Assembly: GCA_004524535.1 (NCBI GenBank)
Contig: SDNY01000017.1
Coordinates: 1 to 40,599, forward strand
Length of the DNA stretch: 40,599 nt
Reading direction: 5' to 3'
Origin: Promethearchaeota archaeon
GTDB lineage: Archaea; Asgardarchaeota; Lokiarchaeia; Sigyniarchaeales; SOKP01
Position 1 is the first letter of the stretch. Each line of letters begins with the position of its first letter. Made by a program: the position numbers and the translations under genes. This document shows positions 27,394 to 40,599 of this stretch, piece after piece. The notes beneath the pieces were generated by a model. It did not search any database. It was given only the letters and a program-made list of their open reading frames with translations, and was not told where the DNA came from.

Positions 27394-27459
27394 ATGATTA
27401 GAAAAAACTTAATAGTTCCTTCATCAACTTGGTTTTGTATTTGTTGTTGGCACGCATAG
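27394..27459 (+). CDS. Leader peptide of the trpDCFBA operon (Trp/Cys-rich)
   Basis: A 21-codon ORF ending STWFCICCWHA, then TAG. It aligns codon by codon with the trpE leader peptide (STWFWAWRWHV, then TAG). Two of its four Trp codons are kept and the others read TGT (Cys). The stop codon lies in the loop of a conserved hairpin. It is too short to be a normal protein gene, but its placement and its partner at 39219 argue that it is translated as an attenuation sensor. Upstream, TTTATAAATA near 27330 may be the TATA box. Confidence 0.65.
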   Translation: MIRKNLIVPSSTWFCICCWHA

Positions 27460-27470
27460 AGCGTGCGCAA
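27447..27470 (+). promoter_or_regulatory. Leader hairpin around the leader stop codon (trpD copy)
   Basis: GCACGC (27450-27455) pairs with GCGTGC (27461-27466) around ATAGA, which contains the stop codon TAG. TTG/CAA extends the stem past one bulged G. At 39278-39301 the loop-closing C-G pair is T-A, so the pairing is conserved by compensating change. The bases after it (GCGCAATGGCTTTA) are identical in both leaders. Confidence 0.65.
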
Positions 27471-27482
27471 TGGCTTTATTTA

Positions 27483-27596
27483 TTTTAGAATTTCTTGCTT
27501 TTATCTCTTTATAATTCTAAAAATTTTCTGTTTGAATTGTAAAGAATAAAGGGGTTTTCTACAATATTAGAAATTCTAATTCTCTTAACATTTTTT
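27483..27596 (+). terminator. Alternative pairings and T-run before trpD (candidate attenuator)
   Basis: TTTTAGAATT (27483-27492) is complementary 10/10 to AATTCTAAAA (27513-27522). The overlapping TTAGAATTTCT (27485-27495) is also complementary 11/11 to AGAAATTCTAA (27569-27579), followed after 11 nt by six T. The two pairings exclude each other. The second is conserved in the trpE leader. This is the layout expected of an antiterminator and terminator choice. Confidence 0.5.
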
Positions 27597-27635: not shown

Positions 27636-28691
27636 ATGTCTACAGAAAAAATAGTTGATGGTTTGAAAAAAATAACTCAAAAAGTAAGCTTAACAAGTGA
27701 AGAAGCAGAAAATATAATGAGAGAGATAATGTCCGGTAAGGTACAAGACGCTCAATTAGGAGCATTTTTAACAGGTTTAGCTATGAAGGGAGAGTCTGTT
27801 GATGAAATCACAGGGTTTGCTCTAATAATGAGAGAATTTGCAAATCAAATTGAACCTAATGTAAAGGGAGATTTATTAGATACTTGTGGAACGGGAGGAG
27901 ATAAGATTAAAACATTCAACATTAGTACACTTTCGGCCTTAGTTGTTGCAGGAGCTGGAATACCCGTTGCAAAACACGGGAATCGTGCTGTAACTAGTAC
28001 ATGTGGTAGTGCAGATTTATTGGAGGGTTTAGGAGTGAAAATTAATTTACCTCCTGAAGAAGTCAAAAATTGTATTGAAAAAGTAGGTATTGGATTTATG
28101 TTTGCGCCTTTATTTCATCCGGCGATGAAATATGCTATGCCTACTAGAAGGGCTCTAAAATTAAGAACTGTCTTTAATATACTTGGCCCATTAACAAATC
28201 CTGCAAAAGCCAATTGTCATGTATTAGGCGTATTTCAAAAAGATTTAATCCCTGTTATGGCCAAGGTATTAAACGGCTTGGGTGCAAAACATGTTTTTAC
28301 AGTTCATAACTCATATGGTATTGATGAAGTAGCACCAGTAGGAATAAATTATATCACAGAACTTAAGAATGGAACAATTGAGAGTTATGCAATTACCAAT
28401 GAAGATTTTGGCATTCCTGATTGTTCTATAAATGATATATTAGCGGGAAACACTGAAGAAAATCTTAAAATCGCAGTGAATATCTTAAAAAATAAAGTTA
28501 TAGATGCAAAATATAACACGGTATTAATGAATGCTGCATTAGCTCTTAAAAGTGTAAATAAGGCAAGCGATATCAAAGAAGGAATTGAAATCGCTAAAAA
28601 TGTTATTGAATCTGGAAGTGTTTTTGAAAAACTTAAACAATTTATCGAAGTATCCGGTGGAACTCAAGATAAGTTAATGAGTTTGTTATAA
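27636..28691 (+). CDS. trpD: Anthranilate phosphoribosyltransferase
   Basis: A 351-residue protein of normal family length. It joins anthranilate to PRPP, the second step of Trp synthesis. DTCGTGGDKIKTFNISTLSA (about 81-100) is the PRPP-binding glycine loop, KHGNRAVTSTCGSADLLE (about 110-127) binds anthranilate and the pyrophosphate, and RTVFNILGPLTNPA (about 177) closes the site. It is the first structural gene of trpDCFBA and follows a leader with attenuator-like features. The protein appears to contain no Trp, sensible for a gene needed when Trp is short. Confidence 0.95.
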   Translation: MSTEKIVDGLKKITQKVSLTSEEAENIMREIMSGKVQDAQLGAFLTGLAMKGESVDEITGFALIMREFANQIEPNVKGDLLDTCGTGGDKIKTFNISTLSALVVAGAGIPVAKHGNRAVTSTCGSADLLEGLGVKINLPPEEVKNCIEKVGIGFMFAPLFHPAMKYAMPTRRALKLRTVFNILGPLTNPAKANCHVLGVFQKDLIPVMAKVLNGLGAKHVFTVHNSYGIDEVAPVGINYITELKNGTIESYAITNEDFGIPDCSINDILAGNTEENLKIAVNILKNKVIDAKYNTVLMNAALALKSVNKASDIKEGIEIAKNVIESGSVFEKLKQFIEVSGGTQDKLMSLL

Positions 28692-28711
28692 AAAAAAAAA
28701 GCTTGAGATTA

Positions 28712-29509
28712 ATGATTTCGAATAAAATAAAAGAAATAGTTGAGCAACGGAAAAAGTCTATTCAAAGAGACATAGATTTCATGAGAGATATAGGTAGTGA
28801 GATTTTCAAAAATAATCGGAGACCTTTAAGTGAGATTATTAAAAATAATCAAGGGATTTCAATTATTTCAGAGATTAAACCAGCATCTCCTACTTTAGGT
28901 AATATTAAAAAGAATATTAATGTTAAGGAGATTGCTACAGAAATGGAAAGTGCAGGGGTAATTGGATTAAGCGTTTTAACTGAACCTAATTATTTTAACG
29001 GATCCTATGAAAATCTCAAGTTAGCGATACAAAGTACGAAATTGCCGTGTTTAATGAAAGATTTCGTTGTTGATGAGATCCAATACAAGATTGCTGCGCA
29101 AATAGGAGCAACTAATATTTTGATTATAAATTCAATTTGCAATTTGGAGGATTCCTACCGCAAAGCTTTAGAATATAGTTTAGAACCTCTGATTGAAATC
29201 CATAATATTGAAGAACTCAATGATATTCGTCATTTATATGATATAGGTTTTAAACCTACATTAATCGGAGTGAATAATCGAAATTTGAAAACATTGGAAA
29301 TTGATCTAAACACTTCTAAAGAGATTATACCCAAAATAAAGAGGGAATTTGGGGATGATATAATTGTTGTTAGCGAGAGTGGTGTGAATATCATAGAGAA
29401 TATTAATTTTCTCTTACAATATCAAGCTGACGCATTTTTAATAGGATCCTCAATAATGAAATCAAATAACATAAAAGAAAAAATACTATCATTAAGAGGG
29501 GTAAATTAA
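28712..29509 (+). CDS. trpC: Indole-3-glycerol phosphate synthase
   Basis: A 265-residue (beta/alpha)8 barrel that closes the indole ring. SEIKPASPTLGNI (about 54) carries the conserved Glu and Lys, LMKDFVVDEIQ (about 112) the catalytic Lys, IGVNNRNLKTLEIDL (about 188) the Asn, and VSESGV (about 222) the Glu/Ser phosphate site. The ATG at 28712 is chosen, with a TTG three codons earlier as an alternative. It follows trpD by 20 nt and shares one base with trpF. Confidence 0.93.
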   Translation: MISNKIKEIVEQRKKSIQRDIDFMRDIGSEIFKNNRRPLSEIIKNNQGISIISEIKPASPTLGNIKKNINVKEIATEMESAGVIGLSVLTEPNYFNGSYENLKLAIQSTKLPCLMKDFVVDEIQYKIAAQIGATNILIINSICNLEDSYRKALEYSLEPLIEIHNIEELNDIRHLYDIGFKPTLIGVNNRNLKTLEIDLNTSKEIIPKIKREFGDDIIVVSESGVNIIENINFLLQYQADAFLIGSSIMKSNNIKEKILSLRGVN

Positions 29510-30156
29510 TGGATTACGTTAAGGTTTGTGGCTTAAAAGAAACTGAACACATTGAATTATGCAGTAAAAATGAAGCTAATGCCGTAGGTTTCATTTACAA
29601 TGTTCCTAATTCTCCAAGAAATTTAGAAAAATCCAAATTAATGAATCTTTTAAATGACATTCCTAAGAATTTATTAAGAGTAGTTGTATTTAAACCCCAA
29701 AACGTGTTAGAATTAGAAAAAATAACCAATGAAATAGATGTTGATTTATATCAGATTCATAATAATTTTGAAGAACAAGAATTGGATGAGATTTCAATTG
29801 ATTTAAAGAAAAAGATTATTTTAGCTTTACAAGTAAATCCTTCCAATAAAGATGACGTAATTAATAAGATTAATAAATATTATGACCAATTTTTTGGATT
29901 TTTAATTGATAATAGTGAAGGTCATGGTACAGAATTTAATTTTAATATCGTTGCCGATATCATAGATAATACCAAAGGAGCGAGTATAATAGTCGCTGGA
30001 GGTATTAATATTAATAATATTGAAATTATAATTAAAAATTTAAACCCTTATGGAATTGATGTAAGTAGCTCATTAGAATCCGAAAAAGGGGTTAAAGATC
30101 CATTAAAAATTGAAAATTTTTTAAAAAAAGTAAATGAAATTAAGAAAACATTATGA
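29509..30156 (+). CDS. trpF: Phosphoribosylanthranilate isomerase
   Basis: A 215-residue barrel enzyme that makes CdRP for TrpC. VKVCGLKETEHIEL at the N-terminus carries the catalytic Cys (residue 7), FLIDNSEGHGTEFN (about 135) the catalytic Asp, and GIDVSSSLESEKGVKDP (about 182) the phosphate-binding end. Its ATG overlaps the trpC stop (TAATG), indicating translational coupling. The family is normally about 200-220 residues, so it is complete. Confidence 0.93.
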   Translation: MDYVKVCGLKETEHIELCSKNEANAVGFIYNVPNSPRNLEKSKLMNLLNDIPKNLLRVVVFKPQNVLELEKITNEIDVDLYQIHNNFEEQELDEISIDLKKKIILALQVNPSNKDDVINKINKYYDQFFGFLIDNSEGHGTEFNFNIVADIIDNTKGASIIVAGGININNIEIIIKNLNPYGIDVSSSLESEKGVKDPLKIENFLKKVNEIKKTL

Positions 30157-30165
30157 GGAATAAAT

Positions 30166-31368
30166 ATGAAATATAATGGGATATATCCTAATAAGTGCGG
30201 TAAATTTGGGGATTTCGGAGGTATTTTTGCTCCAGAGGTTCTCATGCCGGCACTTTGTGAGCTGGATGAAGCTTTTGAAAAATATAGAAATGACGAAAGT
30301 TTCAAGAAAGAGTTTTATCAGATACTCGAATCATATGGGGGCCGTCCAACACCTTTATTTTATGCTAAAAGACTAAGCGAAAATGTAGGATGCAAAGTAT
30401 ATTTGAAAAGAGAAGATTTACTTCATGGTGGAGCTCACAAATTAAACAATGTAATAGGACAGGCTTTATTAGCCAAGAGAATGGGAAAGAAAAAGCTTGT
30501 AGCAGAAACAGGAGCAGGACAACATGGGTTTGCTACTGCTATTGCTGGAGCTTATTTCGGTATGGAAACAAAAGTATTCATGGGAAAAGTAGATATAGCC
30601 AGACAAGCTTACAATGTTTATCGCATGCAATTACTTGGTGCTGAAGTAATACCTGTGGAAAGTGGTTCAAAAACATTGAAGGATGCAATTAATGATGGAC
30701 TTAGATATTGGATCACCAATGTAAGAGATACTCACTATTTAATGGGAAGCGTTGTCGGTCCACATCCATATCCTCTATTAGTTAGAGAATTCCAAAGAAT
30801 TATTGGAATTGAAACTAAAAAGCAAATAATGGAGTTAGAGGGTAGATTACCTAATGCAATCATGGCTTGTATTGGTGGTGGAAGTAATGCTATAGGAATA
30901 ATGTATGATTTCATTGAAAATGAGAACGTCCAGTTAATTGGAGTTGAGGCTGCTGGAGAGGGTTTAGAAACAGGAAAACATTCAATAGCATTAGGTTTAG
31001 GTCGCAGAGGCGTATTACATGGATCCTTAATGTATCTATTACAAAATGAATATGGTAATATATTAAAGAGTCATTCTATAAGTGCGGGACTAGACTACCC
31101 TGGTGTTGGTCCCGAACATTGTTTTTTAAAAGAATTATCAAGGCTTAGAGTAGAAACCGCAACAGATAATGAGACTCTAGAATCTTTTCAAAAATTATCC
31201 GTTTTAGAAGGGATAATTCCAGCATTGGAGTCATCGCATGCACTTGCATGTCTGGAAAAAATTAAGGGTGAGTTTAATAAGGATGACATTGTAATAATTA
31301 ATTTATCTGGTTCAGGTTCTAAAGATCTAAATATAATCAAACAACGTTTGGAGTTTAAAGTAAAATGA
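30166..31368 (+). CDS. trpB: Tryptophan synthase beta subunit (TrpB1 type)
   Basis: A 400-residue PLP enzyme that condenses indole with serine. [10 protein letters not shown] (about 15) is the N-terminal signature of TrpB1, which pairs with Trp[12 protein letters not shown] (about 85) carries the PLP lysine, with Gly where the family usually has Thr. [10 protein letters not shown] (about 107) has the catalytic Glu, [10 protein letters not shown] (about 227) the phosphate cup, and NLSGSGSKD the C-terminal PLP contact. It overlaps trpA by 4 nt (ATGA), which fits formation of the alpha2beta2 complex. Confidence 0.95.
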
Positions 31369-32204
31369 ATGATACAAATAGAATTTTGGACCTTTTTAAT
31401 GAGAAGAATTCATTAGAGGAAAAATATTTTATGCCATTTCTAGTTTGTGGAGATCCTTCGATTGAGCAGTTTATATCGATGGTTAAAAAGATCGCTCTAT
31501 ATATAGATCTTTTAGAATTAGGTGTGCCATTTAGCGACCCAATTGCTGATGGTCCTACCATTCAAGAGGCAAATATGAGAGCTTTCGAAGCAGGCATCAA
31601 TACAAAAGTAGCGCTCGATACAATTAAGAAAATTAGGACATTTTTCACTAAACCAATTGTTATTTTAACTTATTATAACATTCTAATTCAAGGGTCAGAG
31701 ACAATAGAAAGTTCTTTGGATAATACATTGAGAAGATTCAAGGAGAGTGGTATTGATGGAATTGTTATCGCCGATCTACCAATTGAGGAAGCAGGCTTAG
31801 CTTTAAAATATTGCAAAAAGCACGATATATCACTTATATTTTTGATTGCTCCTACTACTACCGACGATAGATTAGAAAAGATCTTGAAAGAAGCAAGAGG
31901 ATTTATCTATTTAATATCAATATTGGGTGTTACTGGTGCTCGAGAAAAAGTAGCTCAAATCACGAAAGAAACGATTAAAAGAGTAAAAGAAAAAATCAAA
32001 ACGAGGATTCCTGTTTTCTTGGGATTCGGCATATCTAAACCAGAACATGCATCCGCTGTAGCTGAATTAGGAGCTGATGGCATTATCATTGGCTCGGCAA
32101 TAATAGATATCATTAAGAGAAATTTAAGCAATTTTAATAAAATGGAGCAAGAATTAATCGAATTTGTATCAAGTATAAAAAATGCGATAAAGAGGTCGAA
32201 TTAA
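31365..32204 (+). CDS. trpA: Tryptophan synthase alpha subunit
   Basis: A 279-residue barrel that cleaves indole-3-glycerol phosphate to indole. [19 protein letters not shown] (about 47-65) holds the catalytic Glu and Asp. [11 protein letters not shown] (about 130) lies next to the flexible loop, [11 protein letters not shown] (about 180) is loop 6, and [10 protein letters not shown] then GIIIGSAI form the phosphate site. It ends 2 nt before a remnant of trpE, whose GAGGT ribosome site is inside the trpA end. Confidence 0.95.
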
Positions 32205-38776: not shown

Positions 38777-39218
38777 AATTTTCGCTCCGATACATATTTT
38801 CTAACACACAATTCAAAGCTCATTTAAGATTTTTAAATGGAATTGTTATAAGTTATAAGCTTCTAAATATTCCTTACAAGATTTCTAACTAATCTTAGAA
38901 TAAGAAGTTAATAATGTAAAGAAAAAAATCTACATTGTTTAAGATTAATTAGCTTTCTCTTATTTTATCTTAGTCATTATTATTTTTAAAAAGAAAGATT
39001 AATTAAAAAATTGAAGCTTCTTTAGAAGAAAAACTTGAAAAGTCCCTGCTTTCAAAAGAAAATTTTTATTAAAACAATATAATTTCATATTGAATTTAGA
39101 TTCATACGAGCCATTATTTAAGATATTATTAAACTAACGTTATGCTGTTAAAATAAAATATAAATATAAGCTATCCTTAGTTTATTCATATTATACAAAA
39201 CAAAGTTGGTAAGTAAGA
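38777..39218. promoter_or_regulatory. Intergenic region and trpE promoter
   Basis: No gene is seen in these 440 bp. A small inverted repeat TTCTAA/TTAGAA lies near 38885-38902. AAATATAAATATAAG at about 39154-39168 is a plausible TATA element some 50 bp before the trpE leader peptide. Confidence 0.35.
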
Positions 39219-39290
39219 ATGAATGACTTGAATGAAAGTACTGGTTTTTGTAAATCAACTTGGTTTTGGGCTTGGCGTTGGCACGTGTAG
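39219..39290 (+). CDS. Trp-rich leader peptide of trpE
   Basis: A 23-codon ORF beginning MNDLNESTGF and ending STWFWAWRWHV, then TAG. Four TGG codons fall within seven codons, which is the signature of an amino-acid attenuation leader and far above chance for this A+T-rich DNA. The stop codon falls in the loop of the conserved hairpin. It sits 143 nt before trpE, the enzyme whose product pathway makes Trp. The same ORF ending occurs before trpD. Confidence 0.75.
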   Translation: MNDLNESTGFCKSTWFWAWRWHV

Positions 39291-39301
39291 AACGTGCGCA
39301 A
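39278..39301 (+). promoter_or_regulatory. Leader hairpin around the leader stop codon (trpE copy)
   Basis: GCACGT (39281-39286) pairs with ACGTGC (39292-39297) around GTAGA. TTG/CAA continues the stem past a bulged G. The loop-closing pair is T-A here and C-G in the trpD copy. The stretch GCGCAATGGCTTTA that follows is identical in both leaders, including bases not needed for pairing. Confidence 0.65.
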
Positions 39302-39315
39302 TGGCTTTACTTCTT

Positions 39316-39389
39316 TTAGGATTTCTTTTTATTAAATGCATGAATAGAATAGAGATTCTAATTCAAATTATAAAAATTATGATTTTTTT
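39316..39389 (+). terminator. Complementary segments and T-run before trpE (candidate attenuator)
   Basis: TTAGGATTTCT (39316-39326) can pair at all 11 positions with AGAGATTCTAA (39351-39361), using two G-U pairs. At trpD the same segments pair with only A-U and G-C. Seven T follow at 39383-39389. The first pairing of the trpD leader (the antiterminator candidate) has no clear counterpart here. Confidence 0.5.
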
Positions 39390-39433
39390 ACAGATTAAAG
39401 AAAAATAATAAAAAATTAAAAAGTTGGTTAAAA

Positions 39434-40599
39434 ATGGAATTTGACATTCATATTGAAAAGCTTGGCTTCATATCTAATTCGAATATTTTTGGATTCTACA
39501 AATATTTAGTGAATCTGTATGATTTAAAAAAGCATGCTCTATTAGAGTCCGCTTCAGAAAGTACAAAAGAAACCTTATATAGCTTCATTGCTCTACAACC
39601 TGATTTCATGATTGAAATTAATGAGGATAAGTTTAAAATATATGATATCACTACTGCCCGAGGTGAAACGATTAAAGAATTTGTGGAATCTAGAGATCCT
39701 GCTGCGGAAAGACCGCACAATCCCTTACCATTTAAAGATAATGTAGAATATAATATGGTCGCGCTCGATACTTTGAGCCATCTCACACCTTATTCTAATC
39801 TTCCTTTCACGGAGTTATTCCCAAGGAACATCTTTTACGGCGGAATGCTAGGGTATATTGGGTATGACGTAGTTGCTCCTTATGTGGGTTATAAATCTAC
39901 AAGCGAATTTCCAGATATTTTAATGGGGCTCTATACAAAAGCACTGGTCTATTCACATAAATCAAATGCATTATTCATGATTGATAATAGCATTGATGAT
40001 TATTCAAAAGATAAAGATATCCGATATCAACTCAGCTTATTTAATAGAAATCATAATTCAGATGAAGATGGAGAAATTCCCTCGGATATCGAAGAGGTGG
40101 ATGAATCTTATTTCAGATCCAATACAAGTAAAAGCGCTCATGAAAAAATGGTAGAAAAGACAAAAGAATACATTTATGATGGAGATATTATACAAGCAGT
40201 TATCTCCCGAAGGCTCTATACAGAGACAAAAATCGACCCTATGGCAATTTACGAAGTTCTAAGAGTTCTTAATCCATCGCAATATATGTACAATATAAAT
40301 TTTGGAAATATTCGCATCATTGGGAGTAGTCCAGAAGCACTTATCTCAAAAAATAAAGATATTCTTAATACTGTGCCAATTGCCGGAACAATAAGAAGAG
40401 GCAAAACTCCAGAAGAAGATACAAAATTGGAAAAGGAATTGTTAGATGATCCAAAGGAAAAGGCTGAACACATCATGCTTGTGGATTTAGCGCGCAATGA
40501 CCTAGCCAAAGTTTCATATCCAGGTTCTGTTGACACATTTGAACTCATGACAATTCAAAAATATCAAAAAGTTCAGCATATTGTTAGTAAAGTGAGAAG
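39434..40599 (+). CDS. trpE: Anthranilate synthase component I (partial, runs off the window)
   Basis: The first 388 codons are present and the gene continues past 40599. It converts chorismate to anthranilate with the TrpG glutaminase, which is not in the window. HALLESASES (about 34) contains the LLES element of the Trp feedback site. GSSPEALISK, PIAGTIRRGKTPEEDTKLE and HIMLVDLARNDLAKV are the chorismate and Mg2+ motifs. It has its own leader peptide and hairpin, so it should be controlled both by attenuation and by feedback. Confidence 0.93.
   Translation, partial: MEFDIHIEKLGFISNSNIFGFYKYLVNLYDLKKHALLESASESTKETLYSFIALQPDFMIEINEDKFKIYDITTARGETIKEFVESRDPAAERPHNPLPFKDNVEYNMVALDTLSHLTPYSNLPFTELFPRNIFYGGMLGYIGYDVVAPYVGYKSTSEFPDILMGLYTKALVYSHKSNALFMIDNSIDDYSKDKDIRYQLSLFNRNHNSDEDGEIPSDIEEVDESYFRSNTSKSAHEKMVEKTKEYIYDGDIIQAVISRRLYTETKIDPMAIYEVLRVLNPSQYMYNINFGNIRIIGSSPEALISKNKDILNTVPIAGTIRRGKTPEEDTKLEKELLDDPKEKAEHIMLVDLARNDLAKVSYPGSVDTFELMTIQKYQKVQHIVSKVR

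Follow-up and report, generated by a model that had tools for sequence, protein, structure and literature searches.

How the tryptophan genes of an Asgard archaeon sense the amino acid that they make is the question raised by the DNA in front of trpE in the window (the whole stretch of 40,599 nucleotides analyzed here). Leader-peptide attenuation is textbook regulation in bacteria. For archaea, trp control was in 2019 little known beyond the repressor TrpY, to which Tar was then added (PMC6737238), and a 2021 paper names promoter recruitment as the sole known target of archaeal transcription control (PMC8448881). No case of leader-peptide attenuation in archaea, including Asgard archaea, was found in the open-access literature, subscription papers lying outside the search. 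The comparisons below indicate that a translated, tryptophan-sensing leader (i.e., a ribosome-mediated attenuator) probably precedes the tryptophan synthesis genes of Asgard archaea.

The leader before trpE and its second copy before trpD

The preliminary description placed a 23-codon ORF ending WFWAWRWHV directly before trpE, with its stop codon in a hairpin loop and, beyond it, a complementary pair of 11 positions followed by seven T, and each of these elements is present at the position given for it (Table 1). The ORF closes with W-F-W-A-W-R-W (four Trp in seven codons), followed by HV and UAG. The inner stem of the hairpin, GCACGT/ACGTGC, joins 39281-39286 to 39292-39297 around a loop, GUAGA, that contains the stop codon (TAG, 39288-39290), and past a bulged G (39298) an outer helix of five pairs, CGTTG/CAATG, joins 39276-39280 to 39299-39303. 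Helix 2 includes two G-U pairs among its 11 positions, and a TATA-like stretch that may serve as promoter of the leader transcript lies ~50 nt upstream of the ORF. ORF ends with at least three UGG in the last 10 codons occur at 0.017-0.031 per kb of strand, a background computed from the retrieved loci and not from the whole genome; given this low rate and the conservation of the element in nine genomes, the trpE leader is more than chance. The host is marked as an Asgard archaeon by a eukaryote-like actin (441 bits) encoded in its genome.

A search of the leader DNA against the host genome returned one other strong match (27423-27496), shortly upstream of trpDCFBA. This second leader, missing from the preliminary description, spans 27394-27472 as a whole element (ORF and hairpin). 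Its inner stem reads GCACGC/GCGTGC versus GCACGT/ACGTGC in the trpE copy, a compensatory change. Two UGG codons are left in it, the remaining positions being UGU (Cys) or other codons. Elsewhere in the same genome, a contig end (G000:C133:3-362) carries a partial second trpE piece that matches residues 269-388 of trpE in the window at 96% identity, for which strain variation or assembly are possible explanations.

Table 1. Leader elements and adjoining genes in the window, with the basis of each assignment
Feature	Position	Strand	Basis or remark
TATA-like stretch, putative leader promoter	39159..39169	+	resemblance to consensus only
trpE leader ORF, ATG to TAG, 23 codons, MNDLNESTGFCKSTWFWAWRWHV then stop	39219..39290	+	sequence; in-frame conservation in relatives
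Hairpin around the stop codon: inner stem of 6 bp, one bulged G, outer helix of 5 bp; UAG within the loop	39276..39303	+	compensatory changes, swap test
Helix 2, 5' arm, TTAGGATTTCT	39316..39326	+	11 positions, pairs with 39351-39361
Helix 2, 3' arm, AGAGATTCTAA	39351..39361	+	complement of 39316-39326
Seven consecutive T, candidate U-tract site for archaeal termination	39383..39389	+	putative function
trpE (anthranilate synthase component I; Chorismate_bind)	39434..40597	+	extends past contig end
Second leader ORF, before trpD, MIRKNLIVPSSTWFCICCWHA then stop (UAG)	27394..27459	+	homologous to trpE leader
trpD-leader stop-codon hairpin, stem GCACGC/GCGTGC	27445..27472	+	same hairpin as trpE copy
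Helix 2, 5' arm, trpD leader, TTAGAATTTCT	27485..27495	+	
Helix 2, 3' arm, trpD leader, AGAAATTCTAA	27569..27579	+	
trpD-trpC-trpF-trpB-trpA, unit behind second leader	27636..32204	+	

Distribution of the leader among Asgard archaea

The GTDB family of the host comprises 65 genomes, among which trp genes are patchily present. A covariance model built on six leaders and run against 228 genomes of the phylum found 12 places in nine genomes, every one of them in the window's family and 10 of them directly upstream of trp genes. The preliminary description had called for such a model and for a search before trpE and trpD in relatives, and in these the Trp codons and the hairpin are indeed conserved. 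Family operons lacking a model match have leaders of other sequence, recognized by reading upstream by hand (non-type-1 endings include FRWQWLWRA, GWQMPWRY, WQWPWRWQ, and VWAWWRA), and all 20 of the family's trp transcription units whose 5' end lies intact on the contig have a leader. Where the trp operon is split (six genomes), a leader stands before each half, and unsplit operons have one at the front only. Leader start, length, and stop are conserved in family f1, and one Trp-rich frame (G147) has no ATG, GTG, or TTG start. Type-1 leaders share the C-terminus W-R-W-H-A-stop, and their sequence is conserved beyond what pairing demands.

Individual loci depart from this pattern in several ways. 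In G064 (L039:9083-9409), the leader is kept before a 42-codon remnant of trpE in an apparently decayed trp operon. In the trp region of G024 (L040:8800-10204), a type-1 leader with hairpin and helix 2 precedes a gene for an acetyltransferase-methyltransferase fusion ~2 kb past trpE (trpEG). A small gene (~85-99 aa, motif LGPEKxxTARFI), for which no Pfam family was matched, lies between leader and trpD at six loci (L042, L043, L044, L045, L036, and L035). The hairpin stop has been lost by substitution or indel, with Trp codons or hairpin remaining, at L035 (G062 trpD), L316 (G020 trpB2), L332, L333, and L337.

The leader also occurs before a gene outside the trp operons. Several trpD leaders are followed ~100 nt downstream by a second conserved hairpin (loop TTGAnnTCCAA; two-sided changes in five pairs), and a model of this hairpin matched a second locus in many family genomes, the stand-alone trpB2 (TIGR01415, 590 bits). 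A leader (e.g., MATVKNITWQWPWRWQ, MATVNNWAWRWQWPWRWR, or MVTENFDFCWQWPWRS) precedes 39 of the 48 trpB2 copies in the family; in 38 of these leaders the stop at the hairpin is in frame, and in that of G020 it is frame-shifted. The leader is degenerate in three further copies and absent from six (G000, G007, G008, G009, G010, and G013), in each of whose genomes the trp operon has a leader. The window organism's own trpB2 (G000:C22:24618-26097; L300, L307) keeps the downstream hairpin and has no Trp leader. Outside the family, trpB2 leaders are strongly Trp-rich in f7, f25, and f26 and shorter, with two Trp, in f2, f3, and f4; f17 and f23 give one less clear three-Trp match each (two in all), and most trpB2 genes of other families have no Trp leader.

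Beyond the family, Trp-rich ORFs end just upstream of trpD in f2, f4, f7, f26, f27, and f29, where the operon order is trpD-C-F-B-A-E-G. Under a fixed rule (at least three Trp within the last 10 codons before the stop, within 450 nt), such an ORF precedes seven of the 10 operons that begin with trpD in other Asgard families versus 0.33 expected from random windows in the same loci, and none of eight trpE-first operons. Among all residues compared at the trpD-first loci, Trp alone is clearly enriched. A control set of 80 unrelated trpD loci (bacteria and a few non-Asgard archaea) yielded one chance match, and neither a His leader upstream of hisG nor a Phe/Tyr leader upstream of pheA was seen, these genes perhaps not being first in their operons. 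In the Thermoproteota sampled, nothing comparable precedes the best-matching trpE loci or 30 trpB2 loci, and an Asgard-like trpC-first operon in one of them (G253) has the upstream TGGACTGGAAT motif in common and no Trp-rich end. At six loci (L085, L084, L097, L098, L102, and L224), a conserved motif around TTGGACTGGAA(T/A)TA (or GTTTGGATC) is seen, which precedes the Trp-rich ORF in f7, f26, f27, and f29 and trpC in one Thermoproteota genome; it may be another short ORF or mark where a longer leader frame begins.

Within the last 33 nt of the leaders, UGG triplets number 104 in frame and 0 and 3 in the other two frames; the in-frame count is biased upward, the frame having been picked by its Trp codons, and the near-absence out of frame is unbiased. 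Every comparative test run thus points to a translated leader, which, as judged from comparison of these loci, is specific to genes for tryptophan and occurs widely among Asgard archaea.

The stop-codon hairpin, the proposed sensor, and its output

The sequences that pair around the stop differ widely among leaders (e.g., GGCGTT/AACGCC, GGTCTT/AAGACC, AGTGGC/GCCACT, and GGTGGA/TCCACC). In a hand-made structural alignment of the family's inner stem, three of five pairs have changed on both sides, and pairing holds in 78 of 80 cells. When hairpin arms are exchanged between leaders, cognate arms fold better than exchanged ones in the family (n=47; 0 of 5000 permutations as good, p<0.001), for trpB2 only (p=0.002), and outside the family (n=24, p=0.0006), in a permutation scheme that cancels additive composition effects and leaves relatedness and some base-composition effects in place. 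The stop-codon hairpin is therefore solid in the family. Outside it, the hairpin is likely and not certain, because comparison with shuffled downstream sequence, which gives p=0.002 overall, gives p=0.28 for the non-family trp leaders alone, and because eight leaders form no 4-bp stem around the stop by a simple rule. The sequence comparisons show the ORF with its frame and Trp bias, the covarying hairpin, and the regulon, which consists of trp operons, trpE or trpAE where split off, and trpB2.

The Trp-sensing leader is most likely a ribosome-mediated attenuator, and for translation in vivo, stalling on the Trp codons, and the sign of the effect we infer the following course. A ribosome would translate the short leader ORF and, given enough charged tRNA-Trp, would pass the UGG cluster, reach the stop, and leave, whereupon the hairpin (its 5' arm made of the last Trp codons, its loop or an arm holding the stop, and its 3' arm made of the nucleotides that follow) could close and expression of the downstream genes would be low. 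With tRNA-Trp uncharged, the ribosome would wait at the UGG codons of the 5' arm, the hairpin would stay open, and expression would be high. As the hairpin would be opened by a waiting ribosome and released to close by a departed one, the element would therefore act as a tryptophan sensor. Among the points against an attenuator, a ribosome waiting on the first of the Trp codons before trpE would, by the usual footprint, fall short of the inner stem, the window's trpD leader has only two UGG left, and the G147 frame has no standard start. Codon runs also call for caution, as mutation of the Leu codons in the actinobacterial leuA leader reportedly left regulation unaltered (PMC1262725). Archaea are reported to be able to couple translation to transcription, and how they do so is an open question (PMC8116511, PMC11616081).

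The preliminary description had spoken of attenuator-like pairings, and this is well supported for the sensor (a Trp-codon leader with a conserved stop hairpin, specific to trp genes) and putative for the output. The claim is only partly right because the hairpin and helix 2 do not compete (the trpE leader folded with or without the hairpin's 5' arm forms the same helix 2), because helix 2, paired in eight of 11 type-1 leaders, is lost in three relatives, and because no long-range alternative covaries. A search of the type-1 leaders for a classical, mutually exclusive terminator and antiterminator found none, and G178 (below) offers the one possible case. Among the candidates rejected, the long-range pairing CATTGG:CCAAT has an invariant partner and no covariation (p=0.29), and CAAC(39256):GTTG(39277), an alternative to the hairpin, is lost in G008 and weak in G064. 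Readthrough of the UAG, judged by eye, was also rejected, the changes past the stop being mostly non-synonymous.

Each of the six leaders that stand before trpE or trpA-trpE has a run of T6-T8, and several other leaders have none; in DNA that is AT-rich, such runs are weak evidence for a terminator. U-tract or FttA/aCPSF1-dependent termination in archaea is described in two papers (PMC8716108, PMC11616081), and the U-rich stretches after the hairpin would fit either. Transcription termination at these stretches (intrinsic or FttA/aCPSF1-dependent) is the first choice for the output of the leader, held at roughly even confidence. Blocked translation of the first gene ranks second and is a tentative alternative: the leader would act as an upstream ORF, and its RNA structure or the departing ribosome would gate translation start of the first gene. 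The leader stop lies ~45-90 nt from the first gene in f7, f26, and f29, the TTGAnnTCCAA-loop hairpin lies close to where trpD-unit and trpB2 genes begin, and in G178 (f26; L097:9200-9250) a CTCTCC after the leader stop is, by eye, complementary both to a local arm (AAGCTCT:AGAGCTT) and to the trpD ribosome-binding site GGAGAGG, with which it could pair. Such gating is, however, harder to reconcile with first genes in the window's family that have no clear ribosome-binding site to hide, with the T6-T8 runs upstream of trpE, and with the lack of covariation in the long-range pairing tested.

Two further explanations give the Trp codons another role or none. That the hairpin is bound by an RNA-binding regulator or acts as a riboswitch-like element, with an incidental ORF (compare the actinobacterial LEU element), would account for type-1 sequence conservation beyond pairing and for the conservation of helix 2 and the downstream hairpin; we regard it as improbable, since the UGG frame is kept 104 to 3 and stem sequences differ completely between groups, in all of which the Trp codons stay. 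An Rfam scan gave no covariance-model match, the T-box included, and although the tRNA-Trp T-box riboswitch likewise senses tRNA charging for trp genes, the Asgard leaders have a translated frame in place of its specifier loop.

TnaC, whose catabolic tna genes are induced by free Trp, is also a Trp-containing leader peptide with a regulatory stop-codon region. Nascent-peptide arrest of this kind, with a Trp-rich peptide in the exit tunnel sensing free tryptophan and the ribosome stalling at the stop, would suit both the conserved W-R-W-H-A-stop of type-1 leaders and the position of the stop inside the hairpin. The fixed Trp/Pro positions of TnaC are, however, absent from the Asgard leaders, where residues of many kinds (A, V, Q, R, S, F, L, Y, N, and I) stand next to the stop, Trp alone is kept, and the hairpin arms can explain the conserved type-1 residues, all of which makes such arrest very improbable. 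Chance (a Trp-rich short ORF, common as short ORFs are in AT-rich DNA, beside an incidental hairpin) is refuted by the comparative data, i.e., conservation at dozens of loci, Trp-specific enrichment, the correct gene context, and covariation of the arms.

Relation to known trp control and meaning for Asgard archaea

The ribosome-mediated attenuator proposed here resembles the E. coli trpL type in having a short ORF with clustered Trp codons before trp genes, then a hairpin and U-rich stretches, and in the presence of one leader per transcription unit. It differs in that the hosts are archaea, the leaders precede trpD, trpE, trpA-trpE, or a stand-alone trpB2, and the stop codon itself lies inside a hairpin formed by the Trp codons; no exclusive 2:3 and 3:4 pairing was found, and no sequence homology is shown. 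By analogy, the sensing side would work like that of a bacterial trp attenuator, a likeness that is claimed for the sensor half alone. Actinobacterial trp attenuators and the LEU element likewise join a run of leader codons to RNA structure, and several pathway units may each have a leader (e.g., trpB1EDGC and trpB2A of C. diphtheriae); the bacterial LEU element, however, forms a pseudoknot that extends to the ribosome-binding site, and the Leu codons there are reported to be dispensable (PMC1262725). TrpY of Methanothermobacter and Tar (TK0271) of Thermococcus also control archaeal trp operons, but as promoter-acting DNA-binding proteins with no leader peptide (PMC6737238), and control through TrpY and the TRP box could coexist with the leader.

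Taken as a whole, a Trp regulon of Asgard archaea (trp operons, split-off trpE, and trpB2) is probably controlled through a leader whose stop lies in the attenuator hairpin, and this would be the first ribosome-mediated attenuation in Archaea. The leader design is a recognizable signature for annotating trpB2 and trp units. Should the output prove translational, the leaders would represent upstream-ORF control in the Asgard lineage. If the attenuator reading is true, ribosomes of these relatives of eukaryotes engage nascent or newly made mRNA early enough to determine expression, and a leader regulon across Asgard families would allow coupling to be tested in the closest archaeal relatives of eukaryotes. 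The recurrence of the leader across Asgard families suggests that tryptophan is sensed by the translating ribosome in a bacteria-like manner undescribed for archaea in the literature searched.
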